NCBI RefSeq assembly: GCF_000826685.1
Contig: NZ_JROO01000062.1
Span: forward strand, 1-50,006
Source: Streptomonospora alba
Lineage (GTDB): Bacteria > Actinomycetota > Actinomycetes > Streptosporangiales > Streptosporangiaceae
Direction of reading: 5' to 3'
Length of the DNA stretch: 50,006 nt
Shown here: positions 32,078 through 39,280 of the stretch, piece by piece
Position numbering within the stretch: the first letter of the stretch is position 1
Layout of the letters: the number at the start of each line of letters is the position of its first letter
Translations under genes and position numbers: made by a program
Notes under the pieces: generated by a model
Databases searched by the model: none
Told to the model about the DNA's origin: nothing
What the model saw: the letters and a program-made list of their open reading frames with translations, nothing else

Positions 32078-33145
32078 TCAGCGAAGGCGGCCCGCGGCCG
32101 CGCGGCCGTTCTTCGGCAGCGCCCCGACCGGGGATCGGCGCTCGGGTTCCGGCGCCTCCGTGACCGCGGGGTCCTGCGGCCGGTCCCCGGTGCGGCGACG
32201 CTCGGCCCCTCCCAGCGGCAGCAGCGCGAATACGCCCGGCAGAGCAGCGACCAGGGCGAGCACCCCGTAGACCACCGCGGCGCTCAATCCGGTCCCGGCT
32301 CCGAGGCCGACGGCGGCGAAGCCGAGCGCGGCAGCGGACTCCCGCGGTCCCCAACCGCCGACGCCTACGGGGACGCTCATCGCCACCAGCGCCAGCAGCA
32401 GCGGAGGCAGCAGCACGACCACGGGAGCGTCGGTGCCCGCGACCCGCGTCGCCACGACGAACAGGGAGAGGTGCCCGGCGAGCCCGGCCGCTGACAGCAG
32501 CGCGACGGCCGGCCATCGCCTGCGCGTCAGGACGGCCGAACGCGCTTCGGCCGCCCACGCCCGCGCTCGGTGCAGCCGGCGCCGACCGCCCGCCGAGCGC
32601 AGCAGCCACACCGTCGACGCGCCGATCGCCGCCATGAGCAGGGCGGACGCCACGGCCGCCGCCTCGGCTGAGGGCAGCGCCCGTGCGGCGGCGGTGAGCA
32701 GTTCGGGCCGGAGAATCAGCACGGCCACGGCGGCGGCGATCAGCACCGCCTGCCCGGCGGCGCGTTCGAGCACCACAGCGCGTACCGCCCGCCCGGCGGA
32801 CCCGGGGGGTTCCTCCACGTGGACACGGCGACCGTGCTCGAACGCACGGTGCACGTCGCCGAGGACGCCCGCCGGCAGCACCGCGTTGAGCAGCAGCGCT
32901 CGATAGTAGTCGGCGACGGCCCGCGGCAATCCCAGCCGCAGCCCCATACCGCGGGCCACGACGACCCACCGCCCGGCCGAGGCGAGCGTCGTCGCCATCC
33001 CGATCCCCACCGCGGCGAGCAGGGCGGGACCGTCGATCATCCCCAGCCCGCGCACGAACGGCTCGGCGCCCAGGGTCCGTGCCAGCAGCCCCAGCACGGC
33101 GACGCCCAGCAGCACCCGCACCCAGGGCCCGATCGCGCGCATCAT
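32078..33145 (-). CDS. LPG synthetase TM-region/UPF0104-like membrane protein (flippase-type)
   Basis: A 355-residue protein with seven to eight hydrophobic helices, of the lysylphosphatidylglycerol-synthetase transmembrane family (UPF0104/AglD-like). Conserved features: ADYYRALLLNAVLPAGVLGD in the second quarter, a conserved VLERAAGQ segment, and SVPVGVGGWGPRESAAALGF near the end of the membrane part, all marks of this family. The last 45 residues are hydrophilic. Such proteins are membrane partners in lipid-linked or glycan pathways, some proposed to move lipids across the membrane. Tandem ATGs follow GGGGGGAGG directly, so the second (33142) may be the true start. It is the last gene on the minus strand of the glycosyltransferase/methyltransferase set. 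Confidence 0.88.
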   Translation of the reverse strand: MMRAIGPWVRVLLGVAVLGLLARTLGAEPFVRGLGMIDGPALLAAVGIGMATTLASAGRWVVVARGMGLRLGLPRAVADYYRALLLNAVLPAGVLGDVHRAFEHGRRVHVEEPPGSAGRAVRAVVLERAAGQAVLIAAAVAVLILRPELLTAAARALPSAEAAAVASALLMAAIGASTVWLLRSAGGRRRLHRARAWAAEARSAVLTRRRWPAVALLSAAGLAGHLSLFVVATRVAGTDAPVVVLLPPLLLALVAMSVPVGVGGWGPRESAAALGFAAVGLGAGTGLSAAVVYGVLALVAALPGVFALLPLGGAERRRTGDRPQDPAVTEAPEPERRSPVGALPKNGRAAAGRLR

Positions 33146-33484: not shown

Positions 33485-34372
33485 TCAGGGCGCCGCCGGC
33501 TGCTGCGGATCGGGAGCCGGTGGTGGGTCGCCCGGTCGAGCGGGGACCGCGAGGAGGTCGCGGTGGCCGATCCGGGCATGCAGGCGTCCCGCCGCGCACT
33601 GCTCCAGGCGTTGGTCCAGGTAGGCGGAAGCCGCGTCGGCCAGATCGGGGCGTTGCTCGACAGCGGCAGAGACCCGGCCGCGCAGCCACTCGGCCGTGAG
33701 CGCGGCGTCGTCGGCGCCCAGGCGCCACGGGCTGGGACGGTCGTGCACGCGCGCGCCGGAGCGCTCGAACGCGGCGGCGGTGACTGCGGGCGCGTCCGGG
33801 CCGAGGAGGCGCCCGCCCGCCGTGCCGCGGCGCTGGTGGGCGTCGAACGCGGTGGCGACCGCGCGGTCGAGCGGGTGTGCGGGCTCCAGCTCCACCCTGC
33901 CCTCCACGGACAGGGTCAGCAGGGCCGGGCATCCGGCTTCCGCGCACGCCCGCGCCAGGTCTGCCGCCTGTTCGGCGGTCAGCAGGTCCAGCAGCGCCGA
34001 TGCGGTGACCAGCGAAGCACCTGCCAGGTCGGCGGCGCTTAGCTGCGCCAGGTCGCCGATGCGGGGCTCCGCGGTGGTCGGGCCGCCGTCGGCGCTGTGC
34101 TCGGGCAGCCCCTCGCGGGCGTGGGCGAGCAGCCCGGGGTCCCGGTCGTACAGGACCCAGTGCTGAGGGCCTGCCAAGCGCGGTGCGAGCCAGCGCCCCA
34201 TCGCGCCGGTGCCGCAGCCGAGATCGACGACCACCAGCGGGCCGTCGGCCGCCGGCATGCGCAGGGCGGTCTTCAGCGGTTCGAGGAGTTCGGTGGAACG
34301 TGCTGCGGCGTCGGCGCCTTCCCGCAGTGCCAGCCAGTCCGGCGCGAACGCGCCGTTCTCGTGCGCGCTCAT
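33485..34372 (-). CDS. SAM-dependent methyltransferase in a glycosyltransferase operon
   Basis: A 295-residue methyltransferase. Motif I is VVVDLGCGTGAMGRWLAPRL near residue 47, then VLYDRDPGLLAHA with the acidic ribose ligand, then ASLVTASALLDLLTAEQ. The C-terminal 130 residues are helical and less conserved. It belongs to an actinobacterial group that I remember next to GT4 and pterin-synthase-like genes. The ATG at 34372 overlaps the stop of the glycosyltransferase gene by 4 bases (ATGA), so the two proteins are made together. Its substrate may be the glycosyltransferase product or acceptor (inference). Confidence 0.88.
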   Translation of the reverse strand: MSAHENGAFAPDWLALREGADAAARSTELLEPLKTALRMPAADGPLVVVDLGCGTGAMGRWLAPRLAGPQHWVLYDRDPGLLAHAREGLPEHSADGGPTTAEPRIGDLAQLSAADLAGASLVTASALLDLLTAEQAADLARACAEAGCPALLTLSVEGRVELEPAHPLDRAVATAFDAHQRRGTAGGRLLGPDAPAVTAAAFERSGARVHDRPSPWRLGADDAALTAEWLRGRVSAAVEQRPDLADAASAYLDQRLEQCAAGRLHARIGHRDLLAVPARPGDPPPAPDPQQPAAP

Positions 34373-35511
34373 CGCCGCTCCCGTTCCAGTCCTTGCAGTA
34401 CGGAGTCCATGCGCGCGGCCGCCTCCGTCCAGGATCGCAGGGACCTGCGGCGACGCCGCGCCGCGCTGCGCAACCGATCGCGCAGCGCGGCGGATCCGAG
34501 CCAGTCGTGCAGCGCCGACGCGAGCGCGGCCGCGTCGCCTGCGGGCACCACCATGCCCGGTATTTCCCTGCCAGGAGCCTCCCCGCCCGGTGCCTCCCCT
34601 CCCGCGGGCGTGCCCAGCGTGGACGGCAGTGCGCCCGCGTCGGTGGCCAGCACCGGGATGCCGCGTGCCAGGGCCTCGGTGACGACCATGCCGTAGGTCT
34701 CCCAGCGCGACGGCAGCACGGCCAGGTCGGCCGCCGCGTACGCGGCCTCCAGCGCCGCGCCGTCGAGCGGCCCGGCCAGGTGCACGCGGTCGGCGATGCC
34801 GTGCCGGGCGAGTGAGCGCCGTACCTCGGCGGCGTGCTCGGGTGCGCGGTCGGCGGGTCCGGCGCACTCGCAGGTCCAGTCCAGGTCGGTGATCGACGCC
34901 AGTGCCTCCACCAGCACGTCGTGACCCTTGCGCGGTGTCAGCGACGCGACGCACAGCAGCCGCGCGGCGCCGTCGGTTCCCGGCGCGAGCGGGGCGTGAT
35001 CGACGCCGGGCTCGACGGTGTGTGTCCGTGTGCCTTCGAGGCCGTGGTGGTCGGCCAGCCACCGTGCCGCCCACGGGCTTGTGGCGACGACCGCGTCGGC
35101 GGACCGCACAGCGGCGCGCTCCCGGGCGTCGAGGTCGGCCGCCTCCGGGCCGCTCAATCCCGTCTCGGCCGCCAGCGGGAGGTGGACGAGGACGGCGATG
35201 CGCAGGCGGCGGGCCTGTGCTGCGGTGATCTCGGGGACTCCGCAGCACACCAGGCCGTCGGCGAGTACGAGGGAGCCGTCGGGCAGCGCCGCGAGGGACT
35301 CGGCCAGCCGGGCGCGGGCGGAGGGGGCGGGACGGGGCCAGGTGCCCGGCACGGTGATCTCGGCGACCGGCCGCCCCGCCGCCGTGAGCCCGCGGCACAT
35401 GCGGCGGTCGTAGACGTCGCCGCCGCTGGGGGAGGCGGTGGCGCCGATCCCGCCGGGCAGCACGACGTGGACCGTGGAGGGGCGGTCGGCGTGCTCCCTC
35501 GTGGCGGTCAC
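34369..35511 (-). CDS. GT4-type glycosyltransferase
   Basis: A 380-residue GT-B glycosyltransferase of family 4. The N-terminal acceptor domain starts with a glycine-rich loop ([20 protein letters not shown]). The donor domain shows [20 protein letters not shown], then [20 protein letters not shown] with the family's E-x7-E nucleotide-sugar motif, then IPVLATDAG. An insertion of two APGGE-type repeats ([16 protein letters not shown]) sits in the loop before the last conserved segment and is probably disordered. The GTG at 35511 overlaps the upstream gene's stop (GTGA). Retaining transfer from a nucleotide sugar to an unknown acceptor is expected, at the inner membrane face. Confidence 0.9.
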
Positions 35512-35906
35512 AGTGCGCGCTCGTAGGAGGCCCAGGCGACGTGCGACTCGTGCAGCGTGACCGAGATCCGCTCCAGGCCGCGGGCGCCCTCGCCGAGGCC
35601 GCCGCCGGCGACGCGCTCGGCCAGCCGGTCGGCGACGACCTTGGCGAGGAACTCCGTTGTGGTGTTGACCCCCGCGAAGGCGTGCTCGTCGTCGAGGTTG
35701 CGGTAGTTCAGCTCGCTGAGGACGGCGCCCAGCTCGCCGGCGGCCAGGCCGATGTCGACGACGACGTTGTCGGCGTCCAGCTCGGCCCGGTGGAAGGAGG
35801 CGTCGACGGTGAACGTGGCGCCGTGCAGCCCTTGCGCCGGCCCGAACATCTCGCCGTGGAAACTGTGGGCGACCATGAAGTGGTCGCGGACGGTGACCCT
35901 GAACAT
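35508..35906 (-). CDS. 6-pyruvoyltetrahydropterin synthase/QueD-like protein lacking canonical active site
   Basis: A 132-residue T-fold protein of the PTPS/QueD family by overall pattern: N-terminal [25 protein letters not shown] and a final [11 protein letters not shown]. Yet the key residues differ. The catalytic Cys of CxxLHGH is Ala24, the LHGH zinc His is Ala30 (LHGA), and the catalytic Asp-His of LDH is Asn67-Tyr68. Only His14, His28 and Glu120 remain. It is therefore not a standard 6-carboxytetrahydropterin or 6-pyruvoyl synthase; it may bind or convert a related pterin or a different compound. The ATG at 35906 has GGAAGG 8 bases upstream. It is first in a coupled operon with GT4 and a methyltransferase. 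Confidence 0.87.
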
Positions 35907-36045: not shown

Positions 36046-36432
36046 CTAACGGAGCTCACCGCTGATCACCCACAGGTGTCCGAACGGGTCTTTCACCCTG
36101 CCCTGGCGCTTGCCGTACGGGCGGTTCTCGATCGGGACGACAAGCTCCGCCCCCAGTCGGACCATGCGGTCGGCCGTCGAATCCGGGTCGGCGACGTGGG
36201 CCGTGATGAGGACGGGCGATCCGCCCACCGAACGGGGATCGTGCCATCCCCACTCGGGGACGCTCTGCGCCAGCGCGAAGACGGCCGATCCCAGCGTGAG
36301 TTCCGCGTGGTTCACGACGTCCCGGTCGTCGGCCGTTCGGAAGCTCAGTGCGGCTCCGAGAGCCCGGGTGTAGAAGTCGATGGCCGCGTCGGCGTCGGAC
36401 ACGAGCAGTTTCGGGTGGAATTCGCTGTTCAT
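36046..36432 (-). CDS. glyoxalase/VOC family protein, PhnB-like
   Basis: A 128-residue vicinal-oxygen-chelate protein with the two beta-alpha-beta-beta-beta repeats expected. The first opens KLLVSDADAAIDFYTRALGA; the second holds HVADPDSTADRMVRLGAELVVPIENRPYGKRQG and ends KDPFGHLWVISG, a form found in PhnB/YdeP-type proteins. Function in this group is uncertain (resistance or metal-dependent conversion of a small molecule). The ATG at 36432 (MNSEFHPKL) is used. The next gene upstream encodes an AraC regulator in the same direction 10 bases away, so the two form a small operon inserted between genes of the glycan-type cluster. Confidence 0.87.
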   Translation of the reverse strand: MNSEFHPKLLVSDADAAIDFYTRALGAALSFRTADDRDVVNHAELTLGSAVFALAQSVPEWGWHDPRSVGGSPVLITAHVADPDSTADRMVRLGAELVVPIENRPYGKRQGRVKDPFGHLWVISGELR

Positions 36433-36442
36433 ACCTCGATGA

Positions 36443-37243
36443 TCACGGGAGCGGGCGCCCCCGGCCTTGTAGATTTCGGCCTTCTTCCGCCAGCCATGCG
36501 GTCGGCGTCGTCCGCATGAGGTCGGCGAAGTCCCGCACGAGGTGGCTCTGGTCGTGGTAGGCGCTCTCGGCGGCGATCCGGGCCCAGGATCCGGCCCCGT
36601 GGTCGGCCCGGCTGATCGCCGCCGACAAGCGCGCGACGCGTGACGCGAACTTCGGGCCGATCCCCAGCGCACGCCGCATCACGTAGCGCAGGCGGCGCGG
36701 GCTGAGATGTGTCCGGCGCGCCAGTTCCTCCACGGACATCCGCCCGCGATGCACTCCGATGATCTCCAGCGCTGCGAGGGCGTCTTCGGACACGGCAGCG
36801 TGCTCGGCCCGTTCCAGGTGTTCGAGGAGGCGGCCGCGCATGAGCGCCTCGCGCAGGCCGAGCGGGTGGTCGGCCAACTCCGCGCTCAACCGGCCGACCC
36901 ACGGCAGGAGGGCGTCGGCGCTGACCCCGCCGGCGTCCACTTCGCCGGGTGGTACACCGGTGAGACGCTGCATCGCCGCGGGGGAGAGGTCGACGTACAC
37001 CGTCGGCTGGTCGGACCGCAGCGTGAGGGACGGCGTAGCCACTCCGGGCCGCATCAGCCCGGCGACCACCGCCTGCATGTTCCGCACGCGCCCGTCGTAG
37101 CGCATTTCGATCGGAGCGCCCAGGCTGACGACGAGCCGCGCGGACAGGGCCGGGACGGCCCGGTGCACGCGCGGTGGACCGACGTGCTCACTGGCGGCGA
37201 CCACGCCGACGCCTGCCGCATGCGATGCCTTGCGCAGGTCCAC
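36443..37243 (-). CDS. AraC family transcriptional regulator
   Basis: A 266-residue regulator. The first 165 residues are a beta-rich sensing domain. The C-terminal 90 residues hold the two AraC HTH motifs: SVEELARRTHLSPRRLRYVM and, after ALGIGPKFASRVARLSAAI, the second ending AAESAYHDQSHLVRDF. The terminal LMRTTPTAWLAEE is typical. The GTG at 37243 is a choice by length; upstream codons are Arg-rich and the ribosome-binding site is weak. It is followed 10 bases on by the VOC gene, which it likely controls. Confidence 0.87.
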   Translation of the reverse strand: MDLRKASHAAGVGVVAASEHVGPPRVHRAVPALSARLVVSLGAPIEMRYDGRVRNMQAVVAGLMRPGVATPSLTLRSDQPTVYVDLSPAAMQRLTGVPPGEVDAGGVSADALLPWVGRLSAELADHPLGLREALMRGRLLEHLERAEHAAVSEDALAALEIIGVHRGRMSVEELARRTHLSPRRLRYVMRRALGIGPKFASRVARLSAAISRADHGAGSWARIAAESAYHDQSHLVRDFADLMRTTPTAWLAEEGRNLQGRGRPLP

Positions 37244-37299: not shown

Positions 37300-38286
37300 T
37301 CATCCCTCGGCGCCCGGGTAGGCGATGCGGTGGCACAGCGCGGCGAGTTCGCCCTCGGCGAGGCGGGGGAGCACCTCGGGCAGCTCGGCGAACGCGCTCT
37401 CGCCGGTGATCAGCGCGTCGAACCTGGCGTCGGCGAGGAGGCGCAGGGCCAGTCGCATGCGCCGGGCGAACCCGCCTCTGCCGCGTGTCGCGGGCGAGAC
37501 GGTGCCGACCTGGCTGGCGCGCACCGTCAGGCGGCGCGAGTGGAAGTCCTCGCCCAGCGGGAGGCTGACGCGGCGGTCGCCGTACCAGCTCAGCTCCACC
37601 ACGGTGCCCTCCGGGGCCAGCAGTTCCAGCGACCGGGCCAGCCCTGCCTCGGTCGCGCTCGCGTGCACCACGACGTCGCAGTCCGCGGCGGCCTCCTCGG
37701 GGGCGGCGAATCCGACGCCGAGCGCCGCGGCGGTGGCGGAACGGGCGGGATCGGTGTCGACCAGCTGCACCCGCGCGCCGGGCAGTCCGGCCAGCACCCC
37801 GGCCGCCGCGCAGCCCACCATCCCGCCGCCCACGACGGCGACCCGGTCGCCGACCAGCGGCGCGGCGTCCCAGGCCGCGTTGACGGCGGTCTCCAGCGTG
37901 CCGGCCAGCACCGCGCGCCGGGCCGGCACGTCCTCGGGCACCGGGGTGACCGCGTCGGCGGGGATCGTATAGCGCGTCTGGTGCGGGTAGAGGCAGAAGA
38001 CGGTGCGTCCGAGCAGCTCCGGCGGCCCTTCCTCGACGCGGCCGACGTTGAGGTAGCCGTACTTGACCGGGCCGGGGAACCCGCCGTCCTGGAAGGGCGC
38101 CCGCATGGCCTGGTACTGGCTCTGGGGGACGCCGCCGCGCCAGACCAGCGCCTCGGTGCCGCGGCTGACCGCCGAGTAGCGGGTGCGCACCACGACGTCG
38201 CCGGCGCCGGGCGGTGGGAGTTCGGCGTCCCGGATCGCGCCGGTGCCGGGTTCGGTGATCCAGAAGGCCGATGCCGAGCGCGCCAC
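37300..38286 (-). CDS. MDR-family (zinc alcohol dehydrogenase-like) oxidoreductase
   Basis: A 328-residue medium-chain dehydrogenase. The N-terminal half has the GroES-like fold with RYSAVSRGTEALVWRGGVP in place of the usual Cys-containing zinc loop; I find no catalytic-zinc ligands in the standard positions, so zinc dependence is doubtful. The Rossmann part holds VAVVGGGMVGCAAAGVLAGL and VQLVDTDPARSATA. Relatives often sit with PTPS-like and CDP-alcohol phosphatidyltransferase genes, from memory. GTG at 38286 with GGGAGG 4-5 bases upstream is chosen; the frame before it is not protein-like. It is divergent from the phosphatidyltransferase gene by 103 bases, so they share a promoter region. 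Confidence 0.87.
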   Translation of the reverse strand: MARSASAFWITEPGTGAIRDAELPPPGAGDVVVRTRYSAVSRGTEALVWRGGVPQSQYQAMRAPFQDGGFPGPVKYGYLNVGRVEEGPPELLGRTVFCLYPHQTRYTIPADAVTPVPEDVPARRAVLAGTLETAVNAAWDAAPLVGDRVAVVGGGMVGCAAAGVLAGLPGARVQLVDTDPARSATAAALGVGFAAPEEAAADCDVVVHASATEAGLARSLELLAPEGTVVELSWYGDRRVSLPLGEDFHSRRLTVRASQVGTVSPATRGRGGFARRMRLALRLLADARFDALITGESAFAELPEVLPRLAEGELAALCHRIAYPGAEG

Positions 38287-38389: not shown

Positions 38390-39280
38390 ATGCGGGCTGT
38401 AGGGGAGAGCGACCGGCGACGCGGTGCCGGCGGTGCGGCGGGTGCCGGTCCGCGTATCCGCGAGGCGGCGGTATCGGTCGGACCCGCGCTGGCGCAGATC
38501 GCGGCCGGACCGCTGCGGCGCTGCCGACGCGCCCAGACCACCGCGGCTCTGGCGTCGTTCGCGCTGCTGGCCGTGCTGTCCGCGGCGACGGGGATGACGT
38601 CGGCGGGGCTGCTGGCGGGGACGGTCTGCATCGTCGGCACCTGGAGCCTCTACACCGCCGCCCAGCGGCGCCGCAGCCGGGGACCCGCGGGCCCGGCGGA
38701 CGCGGTGACGCTGGCGCGCAGCGGACTGATCGCGGGTGTGGCCGCGCTGGTGGCCGAAGGGCTGGTCTCGCCCGGTGCGGCGCCGAACTGGCTGCCGGCC
38801 GCCCTCGCCGCGGTGGCGCTGGTACTGGACGCCGTGGACGGGGCGGTCGCCCGGCGCACCGATACGGCGTCGGCGCTGGGCGCGAGGTTCGACATGGAGG
38901 CCGACGCGCTGCTCCTGCTGGTGCTGAGCGTGCACGTGGCGGCGGCGGTGCTGGGCTGGTGGGTGCTGGCGATCGGCCTGCTGCGCTACCTCTTCGCCGG
39001 TGCGGGGCTGCTGGTTCCGCGCTTGCGCGCCCCGCTCCCGCCCTCCGACGCACGCAGGGCCGTCGCCGCGCTGCAGGGGATCGCGCTGGTCGCGGTCACC
39101 CCGGCGGTGCTGCCGTACGGGGTGGCGACGGCGGTGGCCGGGGGTGCGCTGGCGCTGCTGCTGTGGTCGTTCGGACGCGACACCGTGCGGCTGCTGCGGG
39201 CGGGGAGAACCGGTGGCAGAGGCGGAAACATGCGCGCGGGCGCCGTACCCTGCGGCCCCTCAGACTCCGCCCGCCTGTGA
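38390..39280 (+). CDS. CDP-alcohol phosphatidyltransferase family protein
   Basis: A 296-residue integral membrane enzyme with an intact CDP-alcohol phosphotransferase signature: DAVDGAVARRTDTASALG followed by ARFDMEAD, fitting D-x2-DG-x2-AR-x8-G-x3-D-x3-D exactly. Six or more transmembrane helices surround it. It condenses a CDP-linked alcohol (usually CDP-diacylglycerol) with a second alcohol to form a phosphodiester; the acceptor is unknown. About 50 hydrophilic residues precede the membrane part. The ATG at 38390 has GGGGAAGG 8 bases upstream. Its divergent neighbour is the MDR dehydrogenase, and the GT4/methyltransferase/pterin-like genes lie beyond, suggesting a joint product. Confidence 0.92.
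   Translation: MRAVGESDRRRGAGGAAGAGPRIREAAVSVGPALAQIAAGPLRRCRRAQTTAALASFALLAVLSAATGMTSAGLLAGTVCIVGTWSLYTAAQRRRSRGPAGPADAVTLARSGLIAGVAALVAEGLVSPGAAPNWLPAALAAVALVLDAVDGAVARRTDTASALGARFDMEADALLLLVLSVHVAAAVLGWWVLAIGLLRYLFAGAGLLVPRLRAPLPPSDARRAVAALQGIALVAVTPAVLPYGVATAVAGGALALLLWSFGRDTVRLLRAGRTGGRGGNMRAGAVPCGPSDSARL

Follow-up and report, generated by a model that had tools for sequence, protein, structure and literature searches.

A PTPS-IV protein with altered zinc and catalytic residues, and its gene cluster in actinomycetes

QueD, PTPS-I and PTPS-II are T-fold proteins of the PF01242 family whose active site combines three zinc-binding His residues with a Cys, an Asp-His pair and a Glu that anchors the substrate. 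SCO6650 of Streptomyces coelicolor, of which a solved structure is available (3D7J), departs from this scheme: its structure paper of 2008 reportedly described both the zinc and the catalytic triad as missing. The wider group COG0720 is said to have been the subject of a study by Phillips in 2012. A related case concerns the supply of substrates, as the GTP cyclohydrolase II (GCH II) variant SCO6655 reportedly yields the formylated product FAPy, according to a paper from 2006.

The subfamily itself has also been named. In the parts covered here, PMC5445326 describes a cluster of 561 sequences that preferentially carry the PTPS-IV signature FGPAQ and lists PF00925 and PF01872 as neighbours of this subfamily. 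PF00925 is called GTP cyclohydrolase I (FolE2) in that paper and GTP cyclohydrolase II in Pfam. The string 'creatinin' occurs 0 times, and in the covered passages of the paper neither a loss of the RibA Tyr nor a creatininase partner was found. For Sinorhizobium, the covered part of PMC9478397 describes the creatininase-family protein SMc02977 as a formamidase acting on a FAPy-type compound (AFRPP).

How does a locus from Streptomonospora alba compare with these systems? We analysed a stretch of 50,006 nucleotides from this actinomycete (contig NZ_JROO01000062.1), hereafter the window, and followed its PTPS-like gene through related genomes.

The protein and its closest relatives

The gene at 35508–35906 on the minus strand encodes a protein of 132 residues, P0002, which profile, alignment and structure match identify as SCO6650-like PTPS-IV with the motifs FGPAQ and LHGAT. 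Its reading frame opens with an ATG preceded by GGAAGG, and its stop overlaps the GTG start of the following glycosyltransferase gene by 4 bp. The Pfam PTPS model PF01242 matches at 79.9 bits (cut-off 22.4) and the QueD equivalog TIGR03367 at 30.4 bits, below its cut-off of 89.25. Because the QueD model falls so far short, and because a search of the source genome for other PTPS proteins returned none, leaving P0002 as the sole match, a QueD role is disfavoured.

In an alignment of solved PTPS/QueD chains with a profile of 19 homologues, HGH lies opposite HGA and L-D-H opposite L-N-Y. The PTPS-like pattern with replaced residues that an earlier note had read from the DNA is thereby confirmed: Ala24 takes the place of the QueD/PTPS Cys, Ala30 that of the third zinc His, and Asn67-Tyr68 that of the Asp-His pair. 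The CxxxHGH motif of QueD and PTPS-I is thus absent, with Ala24 and LHGA in its stead, and the set of three His ligands is incomplete. P0002 still shares with QueD, PTPS-I and PTPS-II the T-fold, the first two His of the metal site (His14 and His28) and the anchoring Glu, but it differs from them in the Cys, the third His and the Asp-His pair. Judged from these residues, it retains the Glu that would hold a 2-amino-4-oxo-pyrimidine or pterin but has lost the Cys/Asp-His machinery together with one of three zinc ligands, from which we infer that it lacks metal.

At the structural level, SCO6650 (3D7J) is the only PDB entry matched by the single sequence at E <= 0.001 (E 1.3e-62), and the match spans residues 1–132 with FGPAQ and LHGAT included. 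The predicted model (pLDDT 92.9) adopts the PTPS fold and resembles 3D7J best, with a TM-score of 0.96, an rmsd of 1.0 and 76% identity over 131 columns; ranks 3–30 are PTPS/QueD chains at TM 0.67–0.77 and rmsd 2.5–4.9. The two proteins have both motifs in common, and P0002, a PF01242 protein with FGPAQ, is a PTPS-IV protein of a kind already named, with the structure of a close relative solved. The suggestion of a new family was therefore not borne out.

The gene is also maintained. Its dN/dS against a genus-mate (L039) is 0.38. Values for four further genes of the cluster span 0.26–0.39, so that this gene falls inside their range and is under purifying, though not strict, selection.

Residue changes in two lineages

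Are the unusual residues a property of this protein or of its family? We counted them at 102 actinomycete loci (the window, L033–L132 and L172), drawn from a set of at least 560 relatives, of which the 80 best were taken, and from regions chosen for diversity, so that close relatives weigh heavily and same-species repeats are kept. Ala24 occurs in 102/102, Ala30 in 101/102 (with Val in L036) and Tyr68 in 101/102. Position 67 varies: Asn is found in 87 loci, Thr in 7, Ser in 3, Asp in 2, Ala in 1, His in 1 and one further residue in the last. His14, His28 and Glu120, which had been noted as kept in P0002, are present at every locus, as are Asp51, Thr84 and Glu85. Ala24, Ala30 and Tyr68 are hence family traits, and Asn67 is not fixed. 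The earlier idea of an old, selected change common to actinomycete homologues holds for these three positions; the expected constancy of Asn67 does not.

The family is common: P0002 matches 46 of the 296 sampled genomes of its class, 43 strongly (1.1e-25 or better), while the three weak matches (G051, G263, G276) could be PTPS proteins of a different kind. When the phylum was searched with a profile, which also picks up further PTPS kinds, 77 of 296 genomes gave a match, and from these 17 rows outside the class were counted. All 17 carry HGH. Two of them have Cys at the position of Ala24, and the other 15, all of one family (f56), have Ala. The refutation that the earlier note had named, homologues with the normal residues in the same operon, is thus seen in part: LHGH is kept in 15/15 of the f56 rows and mostly in a similar operon, but Ala24 is found there too.

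The f56 cluster mostly reads RibD_C, dehydrogenase, PTPS, GT4 and methyltransferase. Pfam searches on the genes of two of its loci (L161 and L163) found these together, with RibA once, and RibD_C was found in the remaining cases checked. The dehydrogenase gene adjoins PTPS in 14/15 loci and GT4 is present in 12/15 (L168 and L169 are without it, and L171 ends there). RibA is linked in a single locus, L163, and a linked creatininase is absent from this lineage. A gene of the FolB cluster, identified by Pfam in L161, is divergent from the PTPS-IV cluster in all 15 loci (L157–L171).

A protein tree of 66 of the 114 loci, obtained by thinning at 86% identity and drawn with a midpoint root, sets 14 f56 rows apart from 52 HGA/HGV rows with a support of 100. 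As f56 combines Ala24 with HGH, the simplest order, given a root placed at the midpoint, would have the catalytic triad lost first and the zinc ligand only afterwards, within the actinomycetes.

The gene cluster and its linked RibA and creatininase

In the window, a CDP-alcohol phosphatidyltransferase gene on the plus strand (38573–39280; PF01066, 49.4 bits) is divergent from a series of genes that all lie on the minus strand. It begins with an MDR-type dehydrogenase (37300–38286), which scores 25.5 bits against ADH_zinc_N (cut-off 31.8) and 44 bits against TIGR01202 (BchC), both below cut-off. An AraC-type regulator (36443–37243; HTH_18, 48.3 bits) and a glyoxalase-fold protein (36046–36432; Glyoxalase, 64 bits) lie between it and P0002. 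Downstream of P0002 follow a GT4-family glycosyltransferase (34369–35511; Glycos_transf_1, 88.4 bits), a SAM-dependent methyltransferase (33485–34372; Methyltransf_25, 33.8 bits), whose called start overlaps the end of GT4 by 4 bp, and an LPG_synthase_TM membrane protein (32078–33145; PF03706, 85.6 bits). The regulator and glyoxalase genes (36046–37243) are found at that spot only in the window and in the genus-mate L039 among 101 layouts.

Most of this arrangement is widespread. With a six-frame HMM search at scores above 60 over 101 loci, contig-cut ones included, the dehydrogenase was found in 100, GT4 in 99, the CDP-alcohol transferase in 97, LPG_synthase_TM in 93 and the methyltransferase in 91, along with RibA in 82, a creatininase-family gene in 73 (57 by gene calls alone) and RibD_C in 17. 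The dehydrogenase gene lies within 2.4 kb of PTPS in 100/101 loci, upstream of it in the layouts. The start of RibA lies within 5.9 kb of PTPS in 82/101, and whether it is upstream or downstream depends on the family; creatininase and RibA are frequently in opposite orientation. The 4-bp overlaps and these counts uphold the claim that P0002 is coupled to GT4 and methyltransferase genes, but it does not head the unit in its relatives, where the dehydrogenase is upstream.

Some loci show further rearrangements. Both L036 and L037 carry a RibA-RibD_C fusion, and L037 also a GT4-methyltransferase fusion, as read from sequence. The CDP-alcohol transferase of L049 (10086–12182; cluster c17, 14 loci) has a long C-terminal part for which the one copy scanned gave no Pfam match. 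Streptomyces tendae holds a second PTPS-IV locus (L126, 10001–10396) besides its first (L073), and there the dehydrogenase, GT4 and methyltransferase are not nearby.

The Streptomyces loci compared here mostly have a RibA and a creatininase gene too, whereas the window's cluster holds no linked GCH II or RibD_C and no creatininase. Its genome has a single GCH II, a RibBA that carries the Tyr and is encoded in a rib operon, next to genes resembling ribE and ribH. A creatininase match was not found in this assembly, although at 97.5% completeness and in 110 contigs the absence from the genome is not certain. The same genome yields 11 RibD_C-family matches; on contig C27 (L206, 7663–8855) a deaminase gene and a RibD_C reductase gene adjoin, in effect a split RibD, and this RibD_C is about 56% identical to cluster copies. 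Streptomonospora mangrovi (L127) likewise lacks the linked RibA and creatininase while keeping the remaining cluster; its genome has one GCH II and gave no creatininase match. The genus-mate G250 has one unlinked creatininase.

Where RibA is linked, its type goes along with the creatininase. The variable position is the catalytic Tyr of housekeeping RibA, Tyr105 in E. coli. Across 119 loci, 73 have a RibA without this Tyr (63 with Met, 7 His, 2 Gln, 1 Leu), and a creatininase-family gene is linked in 73/73; the 11 loci with Tyr-type RibA have creatininase in 0/11 and RibD_C in 11/11. The other 35, some of them contig-cut, are without linked RibA, and one of these (L097) has a creatininase. RibD_C also matches in six of the 73 non-Tyr loci and is a real gene where examined (L064, L069 and L106 by sequence, L069 also by Pfam). 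In 18 genomes examined as a control, the top GCH II copy invariably has the Tyr; the RibA of L042 (locus L199) is of the Tyr type, and three weaker GCH II matches (L197, L204, L205) have no readable motif. Of the 18 genomes searched, 10 have a creatininase match, including some in which none is linked to the cluster.

How many evolutionary events stand behind these counts? In the 53 of 66 tree rows with long flanks, creatininase accompanies 22/22 non-Tyr loci. A single change between Tyr and non-Tyr suffices among 31 RibA holders, and there is one independent pair on supported branches and five on all branches, too few for a sign test to reach significance. Among loci with a linked RibA, the coupling with creatininase has no exception, yet it goes back to few independent events.

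The pair recalls SCO6655 and the formamidases ArfB and BrbF, an analogy for the supply step that is based on the replacement of Tyr by Met in the Streptomyces-type linked RibA and on a creatininase-family partner. Of the models compared, MftE comes closest to the linked creatininase (135 bits, cut-off 172), with ArfB far weaker (36.9 bits, cut-off 180). As every match stays below cut-off, the putative role of this protein as FAPy deformylase is a guess by analogy.

A possible pathway and competing readings

The gene neighbours of PTPS-IV point to GTP cyclohydrolase II. On balance we favour, with a probability of roughly 0.55, the reading that P0002 works in a dedicated pathway and does so without the usual zinc chemistry, the opening enzyme being GTP cyclohydrolase II and not GTP cyclohydrolase I. 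Like riboflavin (vitamin B2) synthesis, such a pathway would start from GTP.

Taking the family, residue states, gene linkage and RibA-creatininase coupling as observed, we infer each enzymatic step as follows. As known for the family, a GTP cyclohydrolase II, be it the linked enzyme or the housekeeping copy, would open GTP. Going by their families, a linked RibA without the Tyr would halt at the formylated FAPy, and the linked creatininase-family protein would finish the reaction as a deformylase; in the genus of the window, which lacks this linked pair, the intermediate would come from the one RibBA, which is of Tyr type. A RibD_C reductase may come next, and where its reduction of the ribose comes first, a ring closure like that of GTP cyclohydrolase I would be blocked. 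PTPS-IV and the dehydrogenase would then act on the diaminopyrimidine, our best guess being the formation of a pteridine-like ring. As their families imply, GT4 and the methyltransferase would glycosylate and methylate the product, which LPG_synthase_TM and the CDP-alcohol transferase might handle at the membrane. The weakest step is the ring closure or rearrangement of a diaminopyrimidine by PTPS-IV, which we propose only tentatively. More speculative still is the full picture of PTPS-IV as a T-fold synthase free of zinc: it would take a GCH II product, reached in many actinomycetes by way of a Tyr-less RibA and a separate deformylase, and close a pteridine-like ring, and the end product would be glycosylated, methylated, possibly membrane-bound and not yet described. 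Several findings weigh against the favoured reading: the RibA-creatininase coupling has few events behind it, the linked creatininase is only weakly ArfB-like, 35 of 119 loci are without linked RibA, L097 has a creatininase but no linked RibA, L126 holds PTPS-IV away from the cluster, and several genomes without a linked creatininase carry one at another place.

One can also imagine that PTPS-IV catalyses nothing and binds a pterin or pyrimidine, serving the same operon as a carrier, a sensor or a partner of the dehydrogenase or glycosyltransferase, whose genes are close by at nearly every locus. The catalytic residues are gone, yet Glu120, Asp51, Thr84 and Glu85 are invariant. We regard this as a possible, if minority, interpretation: Met11 (102/102), Thr84 and His122 (97/102) of the HGA class differ from the HGH lineage and fit a rebuilt pocket at least equally well, and the scan of the cluster genes revealed no further candidate for ring formation. 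The linked RibA and creatininase might, on the other hand, be a neighbouring unit for riboflavin supply, with the PTPS cluster making no use of GCH II products. Their frequently opposite orientation would suit such a unit, and so would the window's cluster and S. mangrovi, where both are missing and the other genes are kept. This is doubtful in view of the closeness of RibA to PTPS on either side, depending on the family, and of the RibD_C linked in the f56 lineage, which is without linked creatininase.

A link to cofactor F420 stems from a sentence based on unpublished work in a 2016 review (PMC5041015, in the part covered), which ties PTPS-IV to archaeal F420; neighbours of the RibD_C and creatininase types would agree with a shared precursor. 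CofH, however, is above cut-off in 190 of 296 genomes compared with 46 for P0002 matches, and among the 43 genomes with a strong P0002 match, at least six (G002, G033, G120, G158, G221, G281) are without CofH above cut-off. P0002 thus does not co-occur with CofH in the way expected of F420 synthesis, so that work in this pathway is highly improbable and a general role as F420 enzyme in this class unlikely. Least credible of all is an ordinary QueD/PTPS whose odd residues reflect local decay. It has the Pfam family and the fold on its side, but the same changes recur in 101–102 of 102 loci in a gene with a dN/dS of 0.38, which rules it out in practice, and the QueD model is far from reached.

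If the favoured pathway with its ring-forming step were true, actinomycetes would have a second route from GTP to a pteridine. The analysis contributes two points: a sequence of residue losses that comparison of the two lineages suggests, and the coupling of RibA with creatininase. Through its RibA without Tyr and the accompanying creatininase, the cluster seems to need the deformylated product of GTP cyclohydrolase II. The HGH and HGA forms in similar operons, in turn, hint at how a zinc-enzyme fold may lose its metal while the pathway around it stays.
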